From positions 1 through 22,548 of IMG/VR virus record IMGVR_UViG_3300021197_000415: DNA of 22,548 bases. One strand, written 5' to 3'. This stretch comes from a virus. This document shows positions 407-16,572 of the stretch, piece after piece. Below the pieces are notes generated by a model. The model had not been told where the DNA came from. It saw only the letters and a list, made by a program, of their open reading frames with translations, and ran no database searches. The first letter of the stretch is position 1. Each line of letters opens with the position of its first letter. A program made the position numbers and the translations under genes.

Positions 407-931
407 ATGCCAACAGAGATTAGTGGTGCTACAGGTGTAAACAAAGTACAGACTGGTGCTATAGAAACTGGAGATATGCCTACGGGTAGTGTGTTGCAAG
501 TTGTTCAAGGCACATACGCTACTGAAACAGACTTCAATAATACAAATTTTGATACAGATTCAGGACTTACAGCATCAATTACTCCATCAAGCAGTAGCAA
601 CAAAATTTTAGTGTCTGTAACAGCAGCTGGATGTGGAAAAGCAAATGGCGGAAACACAGGTGCTTATTCTGCTTATCGTGTTGCAAAAGTTGTCGGTGGT
701 TCAACAAGTGAAGTGTGTATAGCATCTCCACAACAAGGTTATACAGGAACATCAGAAGGTGATTTTGGAGTTGTATCGGCTAATTATTTAGACAGCCCTT
801 CCACGACATCTTCTATTGAATATAAGTTATTGTATCGAACAGGTGGTAGTGGTACAGGTAAGTTTTTAGCTGAAGATCAGTCAGGCAATCAACCAACAGC
901 TACTATTTTATTAATGGAGATAGCGGGATGA
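407..931 (+). CDS. Putative tail fibre / receptor-binding subunit
   Basis: A 174-aa protein rich in Ser, Thr and Gly, with no membrane segment. It has alternating short beta-prone stretches (VLQVVQGTYATET near residue 29, NKILVSVTAAGC near residue 64) and ends in ATILLMEIAG. This C-terminal ILLMEIA pattern and the SSSNKILVSV strand are typical of trimeric jelly-roll fibre-tip domains in environmental phages. The start has an AGGAG site. The gene ends in an ATGA overlap with the next fibre gene, so both are translationally coupled and probably form one host-recognition structure. Which of the two holds the receptor-binding tip cannot be decided from sequence. Confidence 0.6.
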   Translation: MPTEISGATGVNKVQTGAIETGDMPTGSVLQVVQGTYATETDFNNTNFDTDSGLTASITPSSSSNKILVSVTAAGCGKANGGNTGAYSAYRVAKVVGGSTSEVCIASPQQGYTGTSEGDFGVVSANYLDSPSTTSSIEYKLLYRTGGSGTGKFLAEDQSGNQPTATILLMEIAG

Positions 932-1716
932 GTACAATAAAATCAAGTGACGAACATCTAACACTAAACGCTGATGGTTCTTCTAAAGACATAAAGTTCC
1001 AAGCCAACGGAGTAGAGAAAGCAAGTATCAGCTCTAGCGGTGCGTTTACTTCTACTACGATTGATGCGACCAAGTTGACAGGTGACTTACCAGCGATTAG
1101 CGGTGCTAACCTAACAGGAGTTGGAGTAGCTGGTATCTCGTCTAGTGCTGATGCTACAGCTATAACAATTGACTCAAGTGAAAATGTAGGAATTGCTACT
1201 ACAACCCCAAATGGTTTATTAACTATTGGTGGAACATCAGCTATAGGAACACAGACTTTACCAGCAATACAAATAGGAAGAAGTACGGCTAATGCTGGTA
1301 GTTATAGATTTGGAGTTTATACAACTGCTGAAGGTGTTGTAATAGAAAATAAAAATGGTGATGATGGTATTGCTTTTAATGTAAAGACAACTGGACAAAC
1401 ATTACAGCTAACGACAGATGGCAGAGGCTTGTCACAGTTTACTGCAAAGGTTTGGTGTCAAATGGATATGAGCAATATGTCTATTAATGATAGTCATAAT
1501 TGTGCCAGCATCACCGATATTTCAACTGGTCAAGGAAGAGTTAATTTTATTGTTGCGTTAGCTAATTCATCTTATGCAGCTGTAACATCAGGACCATCAG
1601 GATACATATCTGCTACAAGTAACTTAGGGGTTGGTAATGTTAATTTACGAAGTGCTGATACAAATGGTACAGCAGCAGATACAGATAAAAATATGTTAGT
1701 TGTTTTTGGAGATTAA
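928..1716 (+). CDS. Tail fibre protein
   Basis: A 262-aa protein. Its N-terminus (SSDEHLTLNADGSSKDIKFQ, from residue 6) is the phage fibre signature in which a repeated NADGSSKDIKF-type strand is followed by VEKASISSSGAFT. Residues about 45-70 contain the SGANLTGVG-type collagen/shaft repeat seen in fibre shafts. The C-terminal half is Gly/Asn/Thr-rich and beta-prone, with an SNLGVGNVNLR stretch. It overlaps the previous gene by ATGA. No endosialidase or peptidase motif was seen. It probably trimerises and binds the cell surface with the preceding protein. Fibre assignment is good; the receptor is unknown. Confidence 0.7.
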   Translation: MSTIKSSDEHLTLNADGSSKDIKFQANGVEKASISSSGAFTSTTIDATKLTGDLPAISGANLTGVGVAGISSSADATAITIDSSENVGIATTTPNGLLTIGGTSAIGTQTLPAIQIGRSTANAGSYRFGVYTTAEGVVIENKNGDDGIAFNVKTTGQTLQLTTDGRGLSQFTAKVWCQMDMSNMSINDSHNCASITDISTGQGRVNFIVALANSSYAAVTSGPSGYISATSNLGVGNVNLRSADTNGTAADTDKNMLVVFGD

Positions 1717-2825: not shown

Positions 2826-4215
2826 AGCTGAAGCACCTATAGTTGAGCATACCATTGTTGATGATGGATATGCCATAGTACCCCTAGACTTTGGCTTTCA
2901 ATTTTATGGCAACACATATCACACAAGCGTCATGATGGCTAACGGTGTTGTTGGTTTCTTGTCACCTGAAAGTTATAACTGGGGTTTATGTTGTAATGGT
3001 CAAGACCTAGACAACTACGCTCAATTTGGCAGTAGGTTTGATTTCACTTTAATGCCACTCTGGACTGACTTAATATCTATAAATGGTGTTGGTAAGTTTT
3101 ATACTCAAGGTGATGAAAATAGCATGAAGTATATGTGGAAGAACTTGTCTGAATACTACAGACCAGACTCACGCAATGACTTCGATATGACTATCTATCC
3201 ATTAGGCAATATTGAAATGTCATATAGAAAGATAGACATTAAAAATCATTCTGTCACTGTTGGTTATGTTGCTGATCTATCAGAGCAAGAATATGAACAA
3301 TGGTTTTATCACCAAAACCAAGAAGAAGCAGTGTATTGGGATAGTAGTGAATCAGATCCAGTTGTTTTACAAAATCAAAGTATTTGTGAAGTTGTTCCAG
3401 AGTCACACATTTCTTGCGCCTGGTATCCACAACAATATGCTGAAAACTTTTTAGCAGCTGAATGTGCTAAAGACAGTTTGTATTCACAGGCTTGTCCGAA
3501 TTGGGAGACAGCTTGGTTAAACCAGCAATGTGAAGAAAACCCACAGTCAAGTCCTTATTGCCCTAATTATGTAGAGCTTGTTGAAGAGCCTATTGTATTA
3601 GAAGAAGTTGTATTTGAAGTCATACCTGAAACCTATGTTGAGATAGATTTAATACCAGCTCTTGATGATTACAACATTGACTTGGTTATAGAAATAGAAA
3701 CTGACATGGACAGTTTTGAAGAAGTAGAGATGGAAGTAGAAGAATTAGAAGCTGAGCTAGAGGCTGAGATTGAATCAATACTCGAACCAGAACCTGAACC
3801 TGTAGAGGAAATACCAAATGTACAAGAAGAAATCGAAGAGACCACCGAAGAAGAGATAAATGAACCTGTTGTTATGCTCGCTGAATCAGAGCCAGAGCCA
3901 GAAAAAACAAAAGAACAAAAAAAGAATGATGCTTTAAATAAGATAGTTGCTATTAAGTTAGCAAAAATCAGTGAGCAAAGAGCAGTAGCTACAACACTAG
4001 AAGAGGCAGCAAATCTTGAAGCACTAATTATAGCTCTTCTAAATTTTAATGCTGGATATAAAAGCTATGGTGGTTATCTACCTGACGCTATCGGTTATGA
4101 AAGCAGAGACATATATATAGATAAATATATTCCAGACAATACAAGAGGGTTGCGTAACGGTTTAGCCCAAGAATTATTACATAAAGAAATGGTGGACCTT
4201 CAATGGCAGAGATAG
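2758..4215 (+). CDS. Secreted protein with nidogen-like N-terminal domain and Glu-rich region
   Basis: A 485-aa protein. Residues 1-26 are a signal peptide (LVGCLVLCCLLSLPSKAEA). Residues about 40-75 (LDFGFQFYGNTYHTSVMMAN, then GVVGFLSP) match the Nidogen-like pattern of a Tyr-Gly turn followed by an SNG/ANG-type strand. Residues about 205-270 hold a Cys-rich segment with repeated C-x(n)-YSQACPNW and SSPYCPNY units. Residues about 275-395 are extremely Glu-rich, with Glu-Pro repeats. The C-terminus (about 395-485) is helical and basic in places. It overlaps the previous gene by 68 bases and the next by 13. The signals point to the periplasm or cell surface. Function is unknown; adhesion, receptor masking or envelope disruption are possible. 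Confidence 0.7.
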   Translation: MISLRNLLVGCLVLCCLLSLPSKAEAPIVEHTIVDDGYAIVPLDFGFQFYGNTYHTSVMMANGVVGFLSPESYNWGLCCNGQDLDNYAQFGSRFDFTLMPLWTDLISINGVGKFYTQGDENSMKYMWKNLSEYYRPDSRNDFDMTIYPLGNIEMSYRKIDIKNHSVTVGYVADLSEQEYEQWFYHQNQEEAVYWDSSESDPVVLQNQSICEVVPESHISCAWYPQQYAENFLAAECAKDSLYSQACPNWETAWLNQQCEENPQSSPYCPNYVELVEEPIVLEEVVFEVIPETYVEIDLIPALDDYNIDLVIEIETDMDSFEEVEMEVEELEAELEAEIESILEPEPEPVEEIPNVQEEIEETTEEEINEPVVMLAESEPEPEKTKEQKKNDALNKIVAIKLAKISEQRAVATTLEEAANLEALIIALLNFNAGYKSYGGYLPDAIGYESRDIYIDKYIPDNTRGLRNGLAQELLHKEMVDLQWQR

Positions 4216-6554: not shown

Positions 6555-7733
6555 CTATTTTTCTACCTTTTTTAAAGGCGATATTATAGTAGATTTTGAA
6601 TTTAAGATGCTTGCAAATTTATTTCCAGCCTCTGGCGCGTCATCATCTATCCATCCAGCATAAGTTTTATAAGTAAAACCCGCATTTGTATGACCCATTT
6701 GTTTTGAAATCCAACCTATGTTTTCACCAGAAGTAGCAGCAAGTGTAGCAAAAGTGTGTCTAGTTTGATAAGGGTATCTATATCGTACACCAGCTCTTTT
6801 TAATATTGTAGTCCATTGATTGCGAATTGGTTTGTCACCTGTCCAGGGTTTGTTAGTTCTTGGATTATGAAATATTTCTTTGCCTTCAAGATAAGTGTAT
6901 TGTTTTTGATTACGCAATGTTTCAACAACATCATCTAGTAACTTAACCCATCTATTACTGGCAGCAGTTTTAGTATAAGAGGCAATTTTGTCATCAGCAG
7001 TCAATGCTTTATCAACTTTGATTTTATTGTTTATCCAATCAACATCATCCCATGTAACAGCTATATATTCACTTGTTCTTAAACCAGTAGAAAAAGCAAA
7101 ATGAAAAAGGTTGTGTTGTTGACCTTCGCAATGATTCAGTATTTCAAAAACCTCTTTAGAAGAACAAGGATCAATATCTATCTTTCTTGAAATTGTCTTT
7201 TGTCCTTTTAGTTTTTTACCATACAAAGGATTAACTGCTATAAGTTCATCATCAACTGCTTCGTCAAGAGCTTGGTTTAGTAATGATAATTTATTATTTA
7301 AAGTCTTCTGTGTGTTTTTTTGTTTCTTAAACCACTTCTTTATATCAATGTATTTAAGTTCAGCTATCGGATATTTACCAAACGCTGGTATAAGTTGATT
7401 GTCTATGATTAATTGATTAGTTCGTAAAGTGGATGCTTTGTAATCTTGCTTGTGTAAATTAAACCATTCTTGCAAATATGCGCCAAATCTTATTGAAGGA
7501 GTTGCTTGAAATTTATGACGTTTAGGGGATTTAGGAAACCAGGTAGCATAATCAAAAGTACCATTTTTTATAGCTGGAAGAAGTTGTTCATTTCTCCAGA
7601 CTAATGTTTTTTCTAAGTTAGATTCAGAGGGGGTGGATTGTATAAGTTCTCTGCATAACTCTTCTTGGTATGTAAAAGTGACTCTGATACTTGAGTTACT
7701 TGCTGCGCGAACTCCTGTCCTTTTCTTACCCAT
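6555..7733 (-). CDS. int: Tyrosine-recombinase integrase
   Basis: A 392-aa protein with three domains. Residues 5-70 (IRVTFTYQEELCREL, then GTFDYATWFPKSP) match the Arm-DNA-bind_2 (DUF3596) arm-binding domain. Residues about 80-170 are the SAM-like core-binding domain. Residues about 185-365 are the catalytic domain with R219 (STGLRTSEY), R325 (PYQTRHTFAT), H348 (KQMGHTN) and the nucleophile Y358 (TYKTYAGW). The usual His of the HxxR box is Tyr322, as is common in this subgroup. It recombines attP with a host tRNA gene. It is the last gene of the leftward operon, adjoins attP, and overlaps the excisionase frame by 121 bases. Confidence 0.95.
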   Translation of the reverse strand: MGKKRTGVRAASNSSIRVTFTYQEELCRELIQSTPSESNLEKTLVWRNEQLLPAIKNGTFDYATWFPKSPKRHKFQATPSIRFGAYLQEWFNLHKQDYKASTLRTNQLIIDNQLIPAFGKYPIAELKYIDIKKWFKKQKNTQKTLNNKLSLLNQALDEAVDDELIAVNPLYGKKLKGQKTISRKIDIDPCSSKEVFEILNHCEGQQHNLFHFAFSTGLRTSEYIAVTWDDVDWINNKIKVDKALTADDKIASYTKTAASNRWVKLLDDVVETLRNQKQYTYLEGKEIFHNPRTNKPWTGDKPIRNQWTTILKRAGVRYRYPYQTRHTFATLAATSGENIGWISKQMGHTNAGFTYKTYAGWIDDDAPEAGNKFASILNSKSTIISPLKKVEK

Positions 7734-7891
7734 TGATTAAATCCTTGTATGCTAATTAAGACTCGGTTATCAGGCCCTCGCACCCAAACCTCATTTTCTC
7801 TAAACACACCTCGACTAATCTTAGTGCGTATAGCCTCCTCGGTGTAACCTGATTCAGATGCGAATTGCCTGATTGTTTTATATTCTATCAT
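7613..7891 (-). CDS. xis: Excisionase-like DNA-binding protein
   Basis: A 92-aa protein. Residues 1-60 fit the winged-helix excisionase pattern: IRQFASESGYTEEAIRTKIS as the recognition helix region, then GVFRENEVWVRGPDNRVLIS as the wing, then GFNQWV. It would bend attachment-site DNA and direct the integrase toward excision. The last 40 residues are encoded inside the start of the integrase gene and look disordered. It overlaps the upstream gene by ATGA, so it is translated from the leftward early operon together with int. Confidence 0.8.
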   Translation of the reverse strand: MIEYKTIRQFASESGYTEEAIRTKISRGVFRENEVWVRGPDNRVLISIQGFNQWVRKGQEFAQQVTQVSESLLHTKKSYAENLYNPPPLNLT

Positions 7892-8536: not shown

Positions 8537-8758
8537 CTAGTTTAAGATTAATCGATACCGACCATGTGATCCAGTATTGCTTGCGTTACGTTCATACTCA
8601 GTAATGATGTTTAAACCCATATCTCTTAAATTAGATATTCGAGATCTGAGCGCAAACCCATTGTCAAAATCCCCAGCAGTCACTCCACTGGGGTTTTCTT
8701 TAAGAGCTTTTAAGACTATTGTGCAGCCTTGGTTTAATTGTTCTTTAGTTGCTTGCAT
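8537..8758 (-). CDS. Winged-helix DNA-binding protein
   Basis: A 73-aa protein that fits the small phage HTH_39-type pattern: a first helix (GCTIVLKALKENP), GVTAGDF, then ALRSRISNLRDMGLNIITEY as the recognition helix and first wing strand, and GRYRLIL as the last strand. It may regulate transcription or assist replication. AAGGAG upstream supports the ATG. Its start overlaps the end of the 56-aa gene at 8745-8915 by 14 bases. Confidence 0.65.
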   Translation of the reverse strand: MQATKEQLNQGCTIVLKALKENPSGVTAGDFDNGFALRSRISNLRDMGLNIITEYERNASNTGSHGRYRLILN

Positions 8759-8915
8759 TAACTTGCTCCTTCGCTAATGATTTACTTACTTTGTCTTCAA
8801 GTTCACTTAACTTATCAAAAAGATCTAAAGTAACTCTAGTACTAGACAAACAATCTCTTTTAAGTTCAGTTATTTTTCTACTGACATCCAACATTTCATT
8901 TTCTAACTCATCCAT
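8745..8915 (-). CDS. Small coiled-coil protein (56 aa)
   Basis: A 56-codon frame running from the ATG at 8915-8913 to the TAA at 8747-8745, with GGAG 8 bases upstream of the start. The product (MDELENEMLDVSRKITELKR..., ending LSELEDKVSKSLAKEQVNASN) is a nearly continuous amphipathic helix with heptad spacing, so it probably forms a coiled-coil dimer or binds a helical partner. It is the first gene after the RNA pseudoknot at 8936-8977 and overlaps the winged-helix gene. The opposite-strand frame over the same bases is Ser/Leu-rich and looks like a shadow. Confidence 0.6.
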   Translation of the reverse strand: MDELENEMLDVSRKITELKRDCLSSTRVTLDLFDKLSELEDKVSKSLAKEQVNASN

Positions 8916-8935
8916 TTCTGTCTCCAGTTAAATGT

Positions 8936-8977
8936 GGGCTGCTTTCAAGGACAGGGTGCAGCCCATATAAACCCTGT
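8936..8977 (-). promoter_or_regulatory. RNA H-type pseudoknot between annealing-protein gene and downstream gene
   Basis: Read as RNA from the minus strand, four segments come in pseudoknot order. S1 5' is ACAGGGU (8977-8971), then a 6-nt loop. S2 5' is GGGCUGC (8964-8958), with no gap to S1 3', ACCCUGU (8957-8951). After an 8-nt loop comes S2 3', GCAGCCC (8942-8936). Both 7-bp stems are perfect and GC-rich in AT-rich DNA, and the stems can stack directly. It starts 7 bases after the stop of the annealing-protein gene and ends 20 bases before the next start codon. Confidence 0.6.
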
Positions 8978-8983
8978 ATGAAG

Positions 8984-9595
8984 TTAATTGTATTTCCTTG
9001 CAGCAGCTTCTCTACAAGATGCTTTAATGAAAGTCTTCTCTTCAGGATTAAAGTCCTTCCATACATCTTTTTGTTGAGATGCTGTCAAATCACGATATGC
9101 TTCTACAGTTTCTATTTCGTCTTGATTTGCACAAGCATTTTTAATCTGAGCAATGTAATTACCACGCATGTCAGGTTGATCTTCATCCCATGTAGGCAAG
9201 TCAGGTAAATCTTCACCTTCATATAAATACAAACCAAGACCATGTAAACCAATTGCTTTTGTTACGCAGCGTTTAATTGCCGTATTGACTGCCATAGAGT
9301 CAACTGTTTCAAGCTTTTGTGCTTTGTTCTGAAAATTTAAGATTGGTAAGTGTTCTATGTGTTCTAGTCCACCTACTGTTACACCACACTCTACCCAGGC
9401 AGTTCTACCATCAGTGTGATAGTTCCAACCTTCAGCATTTTTATATACTGTGTAAGTTGCATCAGGATGCATATTTTTTAACCATCTCCAAGCATGCGCC
9501 CAAGATAAGTAATTAAACTTACCTTTAGCTTCAACATTCTTTGAACAGTCAATTTCATACAATTTTTTAAATGTACTTTTAGTTGTCTTTGTCAT
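8984..9595 (-). CDS. Single-strand annealing protein (DUF1071 / SSAP family)
   Basis: A 203-aa protein. The N-terminal region (KFNYLSWAHAWRWLKNMHPD, from about residue 26) and the central block (MAVNTAIKRCVTKAIGLHGL, then GLYLYEGEDLP) are the conserved parts of the DUF1071 family, which belongs with phage single-strand annealing recombinases. It should anneal complementary single strands during recombination or genome circularisation, with help from the SSB-like protein of the same operon. An AAGGAG site precedes the ATG. The gene ends 7 bases before an RNA pseudoknot. No exonuclease gene is visible beside it. Confidence 0.8.
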   Translation of the reverse strand: MTKTTKSTFKKLYEIDCSKNVEAKGKFNYLSWAHAWRWLKNMHPDATYTVYKNAEGWNYHTDGRTAWVECGVTVGGLEHIEHLPILNFQNKAQKLETVDSMAVNTAIKRCVTKAIGLHGLGLYLYEGEDLPDLPTWDEDQPDMRGNYIAQIKNACANQDEIETVEAYRDLTASQQKDVWKDFNPEEKTFIKASCREAAARKYN

Positions 9596-14869: not shown

Positions 14870-15288
14870 TGACTAATGAATTCCCTATCCTCATTGGGGA
14901 TGGATTAAAAGACAACCAGGTTAAATTTATTAATGCTTATGTGAATAGCTATTGTAACGTGAGCAAAGCTTGTGCCTCAGTTGATATAACAAGGCAAACG
15001 TATTACAGATGGTTAAAAGAAAGTGACAGCTTTGATGTAGCAGTAGAACAAGCTAGAGAAGCATTAAAAGATCGTTGGGAAGATGAGATCAACAGACAAG
15101 TCTTTGAAGATAGAAACCCAGTAGTGTTAAACAAATTTGCACCTATGGTTTTAAAGGATCGTGGTTACGCAGATGTTAAAGATGTCAACTTACATCAAAC
15201 AGGACAAGCAGATAACAATGTAGTTATTACTGTTGTTGAAGGTGTTGTAAATGAATTACAAGAAGAGGAGCATAAAATTGAGCAGTAA
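14869..15288 (+). CDS. terS: Terminase small subunit-like protein
   Basis: A 139-aa protein. LKDNQVKFINAYVNSYCNVS, then KACASVDITRQTYYRWLKES is the helix-turn-helix of small terminase subunits (FxxAYxxxxNVxxACxxxxIxxxTYYxWxxxS). It is followed by an acidic helical region and a KFAPMVLKDRGYA segment that is common before the oligomerisation part. It should recognise viral DNA and activate the large subunit. The large subunit gene is not adjacent: two methyltransferase genes lie between them. Start by TAATG overlap. Confidence 0.75.
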   Translation: MTNEFPILIGDGLKDNQVKFINAYVNSYCNVSKACASVDITRQTYYRWLKESDSFDVAVEQAREALKDRWEDEINRQVFEDRNPVVLNKFAPMVLKDRGYADVKDVNLHQTGQADNNVVITVVEGVVNELQEEEHKIEQ

Positions 15289-16207
15289 TTACGATTTAGA
15301 AGTTGTGTTAAGTTTGTTTGATGGTGCAAGTATGGGCCAAGAAGCATTGAAAAGATCTGGAATAACTTATAGACAATATCTGGCAAGTGAAATAGATAAA
15401 CCAGCCATGAGAGTCGCAATGCGTAATCATCCTTATACAGTTCAGTTAGGTGACATTAGAAATTTAAAAGGTGAGACTCTTCCACCAATAGATTTACTTA
15501 TGGGTGGTTCACCTTGTCAGGGATTTTCTTATGCCAACACATCGAAGGATAAAAAGAAGTTAGCGTTTGATCATCCACAGTCTCAATTGTTCTTTGAGTT
15601 TATAAGACTGGTAGAAGAAACTAAACCAACTTTTGTGTTTTTAGAAAATGTCAGAATGAAAACTGAATGGAGGGATGAGATAACCAATATTCTCTCGGAG
15701 GTAAGAGGGTATAGAATTGAGCCTGTGTTATGGGATTCAGCGTTAGTGAGTGCGCAAACAAGACTTAGAAATTATTGGACAGACATACCAGGGTTCGTTA
15801 TTCCTGAAGATAGAGGCATTCTACTTAAAGATGTTTTAGAAGATGAAGTCACTGAGTTTGATCTATTGTCTGATAAAGCTAAATCATATATGGATAGAAC
15901 AGTTAAAGGTGGAAGAAATCATTGGGATTTTAAACACCATTCAGAATCAGACAACGATAAATCAAAAACTGTAGTAGCCAATTTTCATAAGGGTGTTCCC
16001 TACAATGTATTGATTGATAAAAGAGAATTACCTGAGACTAAAGATGCTTCCGATTACAGTCCAGTTAAGAAGAAAAACTATGTTCAATTTGATAAAAGCG
16101 GTAAAGGTTTTAACTCACAACAAGATCGTTACTTTTTTAGAGATAACAAATCAGGAACAGTAAGTACGAAAGGCAATGGCAATGTTGAAGTTAAACAGGA
16201 GAGTTAA
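15278..16207 (+). CDS. Cytosine-C5 DNA methyltransferase, N-terminal part (motifs I-VIII)
   Basis: A 309-aa protein from a TTG at 15278, chosen because GAGGAG lies 7 bases upstream; an ATG at 15251 is the alternative. Visible motifs: I, VLSLFDGASMG (residues 10-20, SAM binding); IV, GGSPCQGFS with catalytic C80; VI, FLENV (E123); VIII, QTRLRNY (160-166). The motif I and IV wording (SLFDGASMGQEALKRSGI) is the Dnmt3-like type common in marine phages. Residues about 190-309 form a target-recognition region. Motifs IX-X are missing and are found in the next gene. Together they should methylate cytosine in phage or host DNA. Confidence 0.85.
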   Translation: MSSNYDLEVVLSLFDGASMGQEALKRSGITYRQYLASEIDKPAMRVAMRNHPYTVQLGDIRNLKGETLPPIDLLMGGSPCQGFSYANTSKDKKKLAFDHPQSQLFFEFIRLVEETKPTFVFLENVRMKTEWRDEITNILSEVRGYRIEPVLWDSALVSAQTRLRNYWTDIPGFVIPEDRGILLKDVLEDEVTEFDLLSDKAKSYMDRTVKGGRNHWDFKHHSESDNDKSKTVVANFHKGVPYNVLIDKRELPETKDASDYSPVKKKNYVQFDKSGKGFNSQQDRYFFRDNKSGTVSTKGNGNVEVKQES

Positions 16208-16572
16208 TGAAAAATGAGATAGTAGGTGGTGCAATTCGTGGTCGTAAGATTAACCCAGAAACTGGCAAAAGAGATGACAAAAACCCTAACAGTGTAATTG
16301 AGCAACGTCTTGAAACACGCAAAGACAATAAATCTAATTGTATGACAAGTGTGCCAACAGATTCTGTTGTAGTTGAAAAAGAAACATACAAATACAGAAA
16401 ACTCAGTTGTATTGAGGCGGAGAGGTTACAGACACTGCCTGATAACTATACAGCTGGAGAATCTAATAGTCAGCGTTACAAAATGATTGGCAACGGTTGG
16501 AATGTTGAAACTATTGTTGTTTTCTTTGATGCTTTAAAAATAGAGTTAATGAGGCGCAGACAAGCAGCATAA
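16207..16572 (+). CDS. Cytosine-C5 DNA methyltransferase, C-terminal part (motifs IX-X)
   Basis: A 121-aa protein. It opens with GGAIRGRKI, continues with the end of a target-recognition region (RKDNKSNCMTSV), and contains motif IX (RKLSCIEAERLQTLPDNYT, residues 64-82) and motif X (SNSQRYKMIGNGWNVETI, 87-104), which completes the SAM pocket. It cannot act alone. AGGAG lies 7 bases before its ATG, and the start overlaps the stop of the first part as TAATG, so it appears to be a real separate gene and not a sequencing error. Naturally split enzymes such as M.AquI set the precedent. Confidence 0.8.
   Translation: MKNEIVGGAIRGRKINPETGKRDDKNPNSVIEQRLETRKDNKSNCMTSVPTDSVVVEKETYKYRKLSCIEAERLQTLPDNYTAGESNSQRYKMIGNGWNVETIVVFFDALKIELMRRRQAA

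Follow-up and report, generated by a model that had tools for sequence, protein, structure and literature searches.

An apparent mRNA pseudoknot retained between exchangeable genes in the recombination operon of small aquatic phages

The element described here comes from a small aquatic phage, where it lies between a gene for a DNA-annealing protein and the gene that follows. The DNA considered, which I will call the window, is the whole 22,548-nt stretch of the IMG/VR virus record IMGVR_UViG_3300021197_000415. Among the closest described systems is the operator of gene 32 in phages T4 and RB69, in which an H-type pseudoknot in phage mRNA is followed by an A/U-rich unstructured stretch and then by the ribosome-binding site, within a neighborhood of replication and recombination genes (PMC535899, PMC3014915). 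The window locus shares this arrangement and this kind of neighborhood, and its knot, too, is of the H type and stands in the leader, 5' of a ribosome-binding site. It differs in that the knot trails an annealing gene and precedes other genes, and in that its neighbors have been swapped. The T4 knot stands upstream of its SSB gene; here the gene for a putative SSB-like protein is second or third downstream and varies between phages.

Pseudoknots near genes for SSB, integrase, and other DNA-handling proteins are also known from the STAXI family (RF01728) of Enterobacteriales, in which two or three of them stand in tandem and UUCG loops are frequent (PMC2864571). The gap considered here, in contrast, holds a single knot, has no UUCG, and gives no match to the Rfam model up to an E-value of 10; the element is not STAXI. 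A further comparison is with the H-type pseudoknots bound by ribosomal protein S1 (a SELEX ligand, tmRNA, preQ1, and rpsO) and with the pseudoknot in tisB mRNA that recruits S1 and the 30S subunit (PMC7708055). The likeness is that of an mRNA pseudoknot upstream of a start site. The two differ in that some 100 nt separate the tisB standby site from the ribosome-binding site downstream of it, which is sequestered, whereas here the knot is at -20 of an accessible one. Finally, the end knot of permuted alpha-type tmRNA has the same core, GGU-L1-GGGNNGC-ACC...AA(A)GCNNCCC, shortly past a stop codon, but the window locus has neither a tRNA-like domain nor a tag reading frame. I do not claim common descent with the tmRNA knots, since the shared core was partly imposed by a search pattern derived from the window.

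The minus strand of the window reads, from 8977 to 8936, as a perfect 42-base H-type pseudoknot with stems of 7 and 7 bp and loops of 6, 0, and 8 nt. It stands in a gap of 68 nt, much longer than any other in this minus-strand operon (the rest range from -121 to 28 nt). After the stop codon of the upstream gene, Sak (TAA, 8986-8984), come 6 nt and then stem S1, so that the knot begins on the 7th base, and 20 nt separate stem S2 from the next ATG (8915). The G+C content of the element is 55%, as against 37% for the window. A first-pass annotation of the DNA had claimed the interleaved perfect stems with their loop lengths, the position 7 bases past a stop and 20 bases before a start, the GC-rich character in AT-rich surroundings, and an annealing-protein gene upstream; the sequence and its coordinates agree exactly with the first three, and a Pfam match to the Sak family bears out the last. 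The features are listed below, the first six of which, read in order, make up the full element 5' to 3'.

8971..8977, minus strand: stem S1, 5' strand, ACAGGGU; pairs 2, 3, and 4, counted inwards, differ among relatives
8965..8970, minus strand: loop L1, UUAUAU, crossing stem S2; 3 nt long in relatives L003 and L012
8958..8964, minus strand: stem S2, 5' strand, GGGCUGC; the middle pair varies, the other six pairs are invariant
8951..8957, minus strand: stem S1, 3' strand, ACCCUGU; 0 junction bases after the 5' strand of S2
8943..8950, minus strand: loop L3, CCUUGAAA, crossing stem S1; AAA at its 3' end is conserved
8936..8942, minus strand: stem S2, 3' strand, GCAGCCC
8913..8935, minus strand: initiation region of the next gene, with an A/U-rich spacer, the Shine-Dalgarno sequence GGAG (8925-8922), and the ATG (8915-8913); conserved
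8984..9595, minus strand: upstream gene, Sak single-strand annealing protein, 203 aa (PF06378, E 3.2e-33; phrog_659, E 4e-53)
8745..8915, minus strand: first downstream ORF, 56 aa, coiled-coil-like, of no reliable family; other genes take its place in relatives
8537..8758, minus strand: winged-helix protein, 73 aa (PF22324, E 1e-6), with homologues also downstream in L003, L004, L006, and L012
8238..8528, minus strand: so-called SSB-like protein, 96 aa (phrog_18187, function unknown, E 6e-8)

The label attached to the 96-aa protein is unproven, as Pfam and NCBIfam give no match and phrog_18187 is the only one found. Further along the same strand, the reading frames of the excisionase (phrog_9668, 7613-7891) and the integrase (6555-7733), as listed, overlap by 121 nt. 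On the plus strand (15251-16572), two ORFs adjoining at 16207 (15251-16207 and 16207-16572) look like portions of one DNA cytosine methyltransferase, which would make it a split gene, a frameshift, or a two-part enzyme.

When 300 first-order Markov sequences were made to match the window in composition, H-type knots with 7/7-bp stems appeared in them at a rate of 0.077 per strand, under loose limits on the loops (L1 1-9 nt, L2 0-1, L3 2-12). Such a knot is therefore unusual yet not extraordinary for one window, and rarity by itself proves little; I judge the element to be real because of its homology and covariation. Within the SSB-like gene, a further H-type candidate of looser form (6/6 bp, L3 11-12 nt), running from 8383 to about 8347 on the minus strand, is at the level of chance (0.58 expected per strand).

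Rfam gave no match to the element, whether at the gathering threshold or up to an E-value of 10, riboswitches included. The earlier description of the element as undescribed thus holds with respect to the families catalogued there, and the element is a new family, absent from Rfam, of a known kind, the intercistronic regulatory mRNA pseudoknot. Several other identities were rejected. There is no intrinsic terminator (a G+C-rich stem plus a U run) in 8700-9300; a repeated DNA operator would call for a second site, and the window holds none; and a tmRNA or tRNA remnant at the locus found no support from ARAGORN (run on L001, L012, and L016) or from Rfam (run on the window).

Scanning IMG/VR with a pattern brought up eight contigs that carry the element, and when the window is added there are six distinct versions: that of the window (identical in L009 and L010), L003 (the same as L011 and L014), L004 (the same as L015), L006 (the same as L013), L012, and L016. 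In an alignment of these versions, standard pairs occupy 96.4% of the 84 pair cells, and three base pairs, spread over both stems, are altered on both sides, which involves 8 cells. Against a covariation score of 0.276, controls in which the alignment was slid gave at most 0.119. Four of the seven pairs of stem S1 vary. The variants A-U/G-U/G-C and G-C/A-U are always paired; pair 2 appears as C-G, G-U, or G-C, with a single C-A mismatch (L006); and the outermost A-U becomes U-U, with loss of pairing, in L004 and L012. Mismatches total three cells and are confined to the two outermost pairs of S1. The one change in stem S2 is from C-G to U-A, in L004 and L012. RNA of the coding strand accommodates all six G-U pairs, and the opposite strand accommodates one mismatch only (96.4% vs. 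90.5% paired).

The first-pass annotation had placed the element in minus-strand RNA and had proposed a search of relatives for compensatory changes. The G-U bias, 6 vs. 1 towards the coding strand, upholds the former, and the search was rewarded by such changes in both stems, at a score that 0 of 500 shuffles reached. The covariation rests on about four independent changes, by my own count, because there are only six distinct versions. The comparison of these versions makes it very probable that the element is an RNA pseudoknot under selection. It is almost certainly a working mRNA control element, a claim that does not extend to what it responds to. Stem S2 and the AAA end of loop L3 are conserved beyond the needs of pairing, which suggests specific recognition or tertiary contacts.

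The versions also dispose of a mini-ORF inside the knot (ATG GGC TGC..., preceded by a Shine-Dalgarno-like strand of S1), since the ATG is absent in L003 and L012 and the frame is shifted in L006. Prophage copies were sought in GTDB genomes; on inspection by eye, the 15 pattern matches looked like chance or REP-like repeats.

The linkers of the six versions, 65-72 nt long, are 74-93% identical in every pair, as compared to 51-59% for the upstream flanks where the upstream gene differs and 51-68% for the downstream flanks. The knot ends 19-21 nt from the AUG in all six, and the distance from the stop codon to stem S1 is variable, 6-11 nt. Conservation of the ribosome-binding region equals that of the knot. 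All but one of the six versions retain TTAACTGGAGACARAAATG within the initiation region, and in IMG/VR this string is found almost exclusively alongside this element (the one other match, in L021, was rejected as a true relative and attributed to chance). Judged by their sequences, the knot and the Shine-Dalgarno-AUG region behave as one module of 65-72 nt, regardless of the flanking genes. The fixed spacing and the conserved ribosome-binding site could come in part from recent common ancestry or from exchange of the whole linker.

The initiation region is predicted to be largely unpaired whether the knot is present or absent. The Shine-Dalgarno sequence itself is likewise predicted to stay mostly unpaired in either case in five versions, the sixth being L003, where it is partly paired when the knot is missing. 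A switch in which the 3' strand of S1 and loop L3 would pair with the ribosome-binding site was rejected: 261 of 500 shuffles did as well, and four of the six phages cannot form one of its five pairs. Since the predicted nested folds leave the Shine-Dalgarno sequence free in most versions and the alternative helix is unsupported, the knot does not appear to be a simple self-occluder.

All six phages have the same order of small genes, annealing-type gene, linker, and variable first gene, followed, where the contig extends, by a winged-helix gene, an SSB-like gene, a further small gene, excisionase, and integrase. The occupants of these positions change. In L012 and L016, a gene for a phrog_11717 protein stands in place of the Sak gene, and the knot is kept. 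No profile link was found between phrog_11717 and Sak, and the AlphaFold model of phrog_11717 is of low confidence (pTM 0.42), with elements in the order alpha-beta-beta-beta-alpha. The first downstream genes and the SSB-like gene also differ between phages, again with the knot in place. Feedback by the annealing or SSB-like protein had been put forward at the outset as the natural reading. With the upstream gene swapped and the downstream genes varied, dedicated feedback by one such protein is unsupported. In the named Sak phages checked, only 1-2 nt lie between Sak and the next gene, which leaves no room for such an element.

As to what the element does, the reading I favor, at somewhat less than an even chance, is that of a cis-acting translation element for the downstream genes, set in the intercistronic mRNA of a phage recombination and integration operon. 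The evidence favors the ribosome-binding side, given the constant spacing and a ribosome-binding site conserved along with the knot. Standing 19-21 nt ahead of the AUG, where the 30S footprint would have its upstream edge, the knot would act on translation initiation of the downstream cluster (the accessory, winged-helix, SSB-like, excisionase, and integrase genes) by offering a folded site for docking. The factor that docks there would be common to all hosts, the simplest candidate being ribosomal protein S1 or the 30S platform: that the knot is kept through swaps of its neighbors is easier to reconcile with a partner from the host or the ribosome than with a single phage protein, and S1 is a candidate because it binds H-type pseudoknots and loads the 30S subunit through one in tisB mRNA. 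By this analogy, S1 perhaps binds the knot. A ribosome finishing the upstream gene would halt 6-11 nt before stem S1 and melt it, so that the knot could be present more or less often according to how heavily the upstream gene is translated. The outcome would be downstream genes uncoupled from, and perhaps timed against, the annealing protein. These phages would provide a second, evolutionarily independent family whose recombination operon holds a covarying knot, and thereby a test case for the dosage of annealing and SSB proteins, and a module retained while both of its neighbors change offers a clean handle on the role of the knot itself.

It is possible, though rather unlikely, that the knot is instead a 3'-end stabilizer, which past the stop codon would block 3'-to-5' exonucleases and shield the mRNA of the annealing protein. 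Protection of the upstream mRNA would leave that protein in excess over the products of the downstream genes. Such a role would suit a knot that lies 6-11 nt past the stop in all six versions, whatever the identity of the gene, and the same geometry (GGU-L1-GGGNNGC-ACC...AAGCNNCCC) closes the precursor of permuted alpha-type tmRNA, right past the tag stop, and is seen again past the stop codons of SSB genes from unrelated phages. This reading, however, gives no reason for the fixed distance to the AUG or for a ribosome-binding region as conserved as the knot, and the knot has neither a terminator-like tail nor a known processing site.

I also doubt that the locus is an operator in the manner of T4 gene 32, at which an ssDNA-binding or annealing protein would bind the knot and spread over the A/U-rich ribosome-binding site, repressing the downstream genes when the protein exceeds its DNA ligand. 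The order of knot, A/U-rich spacer, and ribosome-binding site is that of T4 (PMC535899; PMC3014915), an annealing-type gene is immediately upstream, and knots of the same core lie past SSB genes elsewhere (gp2.5-like in L140, Enc34-like in L056, and OB-fold phrog_2300 in groups A and B, considered below). However, the upstream gene and the SSB-like gene are both exchangeable while the knot sequence stays, and in place of the UUAA(A) repeats found in T4 between knot and ribosome-binding site, each linker has a single UUAA. Moreover, the knot ends 20 nt from the AUG, closer than the T4 operator, which begins 67 nt upstream, and named relatives of the L140 and phrog_2300 SSBs have no convincing knot past the gene.

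It is improbable that the linker is chiefly a modular recombination boundary, that is, a short homology for swapping the annealing and downstream genes, in which the pairing is incidental or serves DNA recombination. The linker lies exactly at a mosaic boundary, but the compensatory changes in both stems and the coding-strand G-U bias indicate selection for RNA pairing, and simple homology would not yield these; any role as boundary may be a by-product. A small-molecule riboswitch of H-type form (of the SAM-II or preQ1 kind) might be suggested by a compact knot shortly before a Shine-Dalgarno sequence, with a near-invariant S2 and AAA in L3, but is very improbable, given the lack of any Rfam riboswitch match up to an E-value of 10, downstream genes concerned with DNA transactions and with no metabolite theme, and a Shine-Dalgarno sequence that is neither inside the knot nor occluded by it.

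A relaxed pattern, derived from the window element and taking no account of gene context, returned mostly genuine pseudoknots from IMG/VR. Permuted tmRNA end knots, right past the tag stop, were confirmed by Rfam or ARAGORN at 13 loci (the viral contigs with such a knot matching the core are L038, L039, L045, L071, L078, L082, L085, L092, L104, L112, L120, L152, and L153). A larger pseudoknotted RNA lies directly past phrog_2300 genes, at L041:~1085-1164 (+), at L054:~3955-4033 (+), and in about 70 other IMG/VR contigs (groups A and B). In 13 representatives of this RNA, 100% of the three-helix cells pair and six pairs are altered on both sides, with 0 of 500 shuffles scoring as high; Rfam gave no match to it. 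Its helices take the following forms.

Helix 1: ACGGCA/UGCCGU, GCGGCA/UGCCGC, or GCGGUA/UACCGC
Helix 2: CUGGU/ACCAG or UCGGU/ACCGA
Helix 3: GGGUGGC/GCCACCC, GGGUAGC/GCUACCC, or GGGCGGC/GCCGCCC
Possible further hairpin: CUAAC/GUUAG or CUAGC/GCUAG

The phrog_2300 protein is predicted to have an OB-fold (mean pLDDT 79; best PDB match PrgE, E 6.6e-5) and on the strength of this model is probably an SSB. Group A RNA at L047:7320-7398 (+), and in L113 and L145, follows an unrelated gene, phrog_5931 (function unknown), so group A RNA is independent of the gene upstream.

H-type knots of the same core are found as well past a gp2.5-like SSB gene (L140:~624-660, plus strand), there followed by a DNA polymerase-like gene, and past an Enc34-like SSB gene (L056:~797-829, plus strand). 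There are also cases past other genes: capsid (L100) and phrog_5931 (L047). Named phages with relatives of these SSBs have hairpins or no convincing knot. The recurrence of SSB and annealing neighborhoods deserves attention because gene context was not in the pattern, but the cases past other genes and the named relatives with no convincing knot make the association a lead, not a rule. It is conceivable, if hardly probable, that aquatic phages possess a wider device in which knots with a tmRNA-like core, directly past the stop of ssDNA-binding or annealing genes, set the ratio of the protein to the genes that follow, through a host ribosomal factor or 3' protection of the mRNA. If this were so, the RNA past the OB-fold SSB genes would be a larger, strongly covarying version of the device in other phage groups. 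One of the contigs with a permuted tmRNA, L112, also carries a manA RNA (RF01745) at 3352-3566 on the plus strand.
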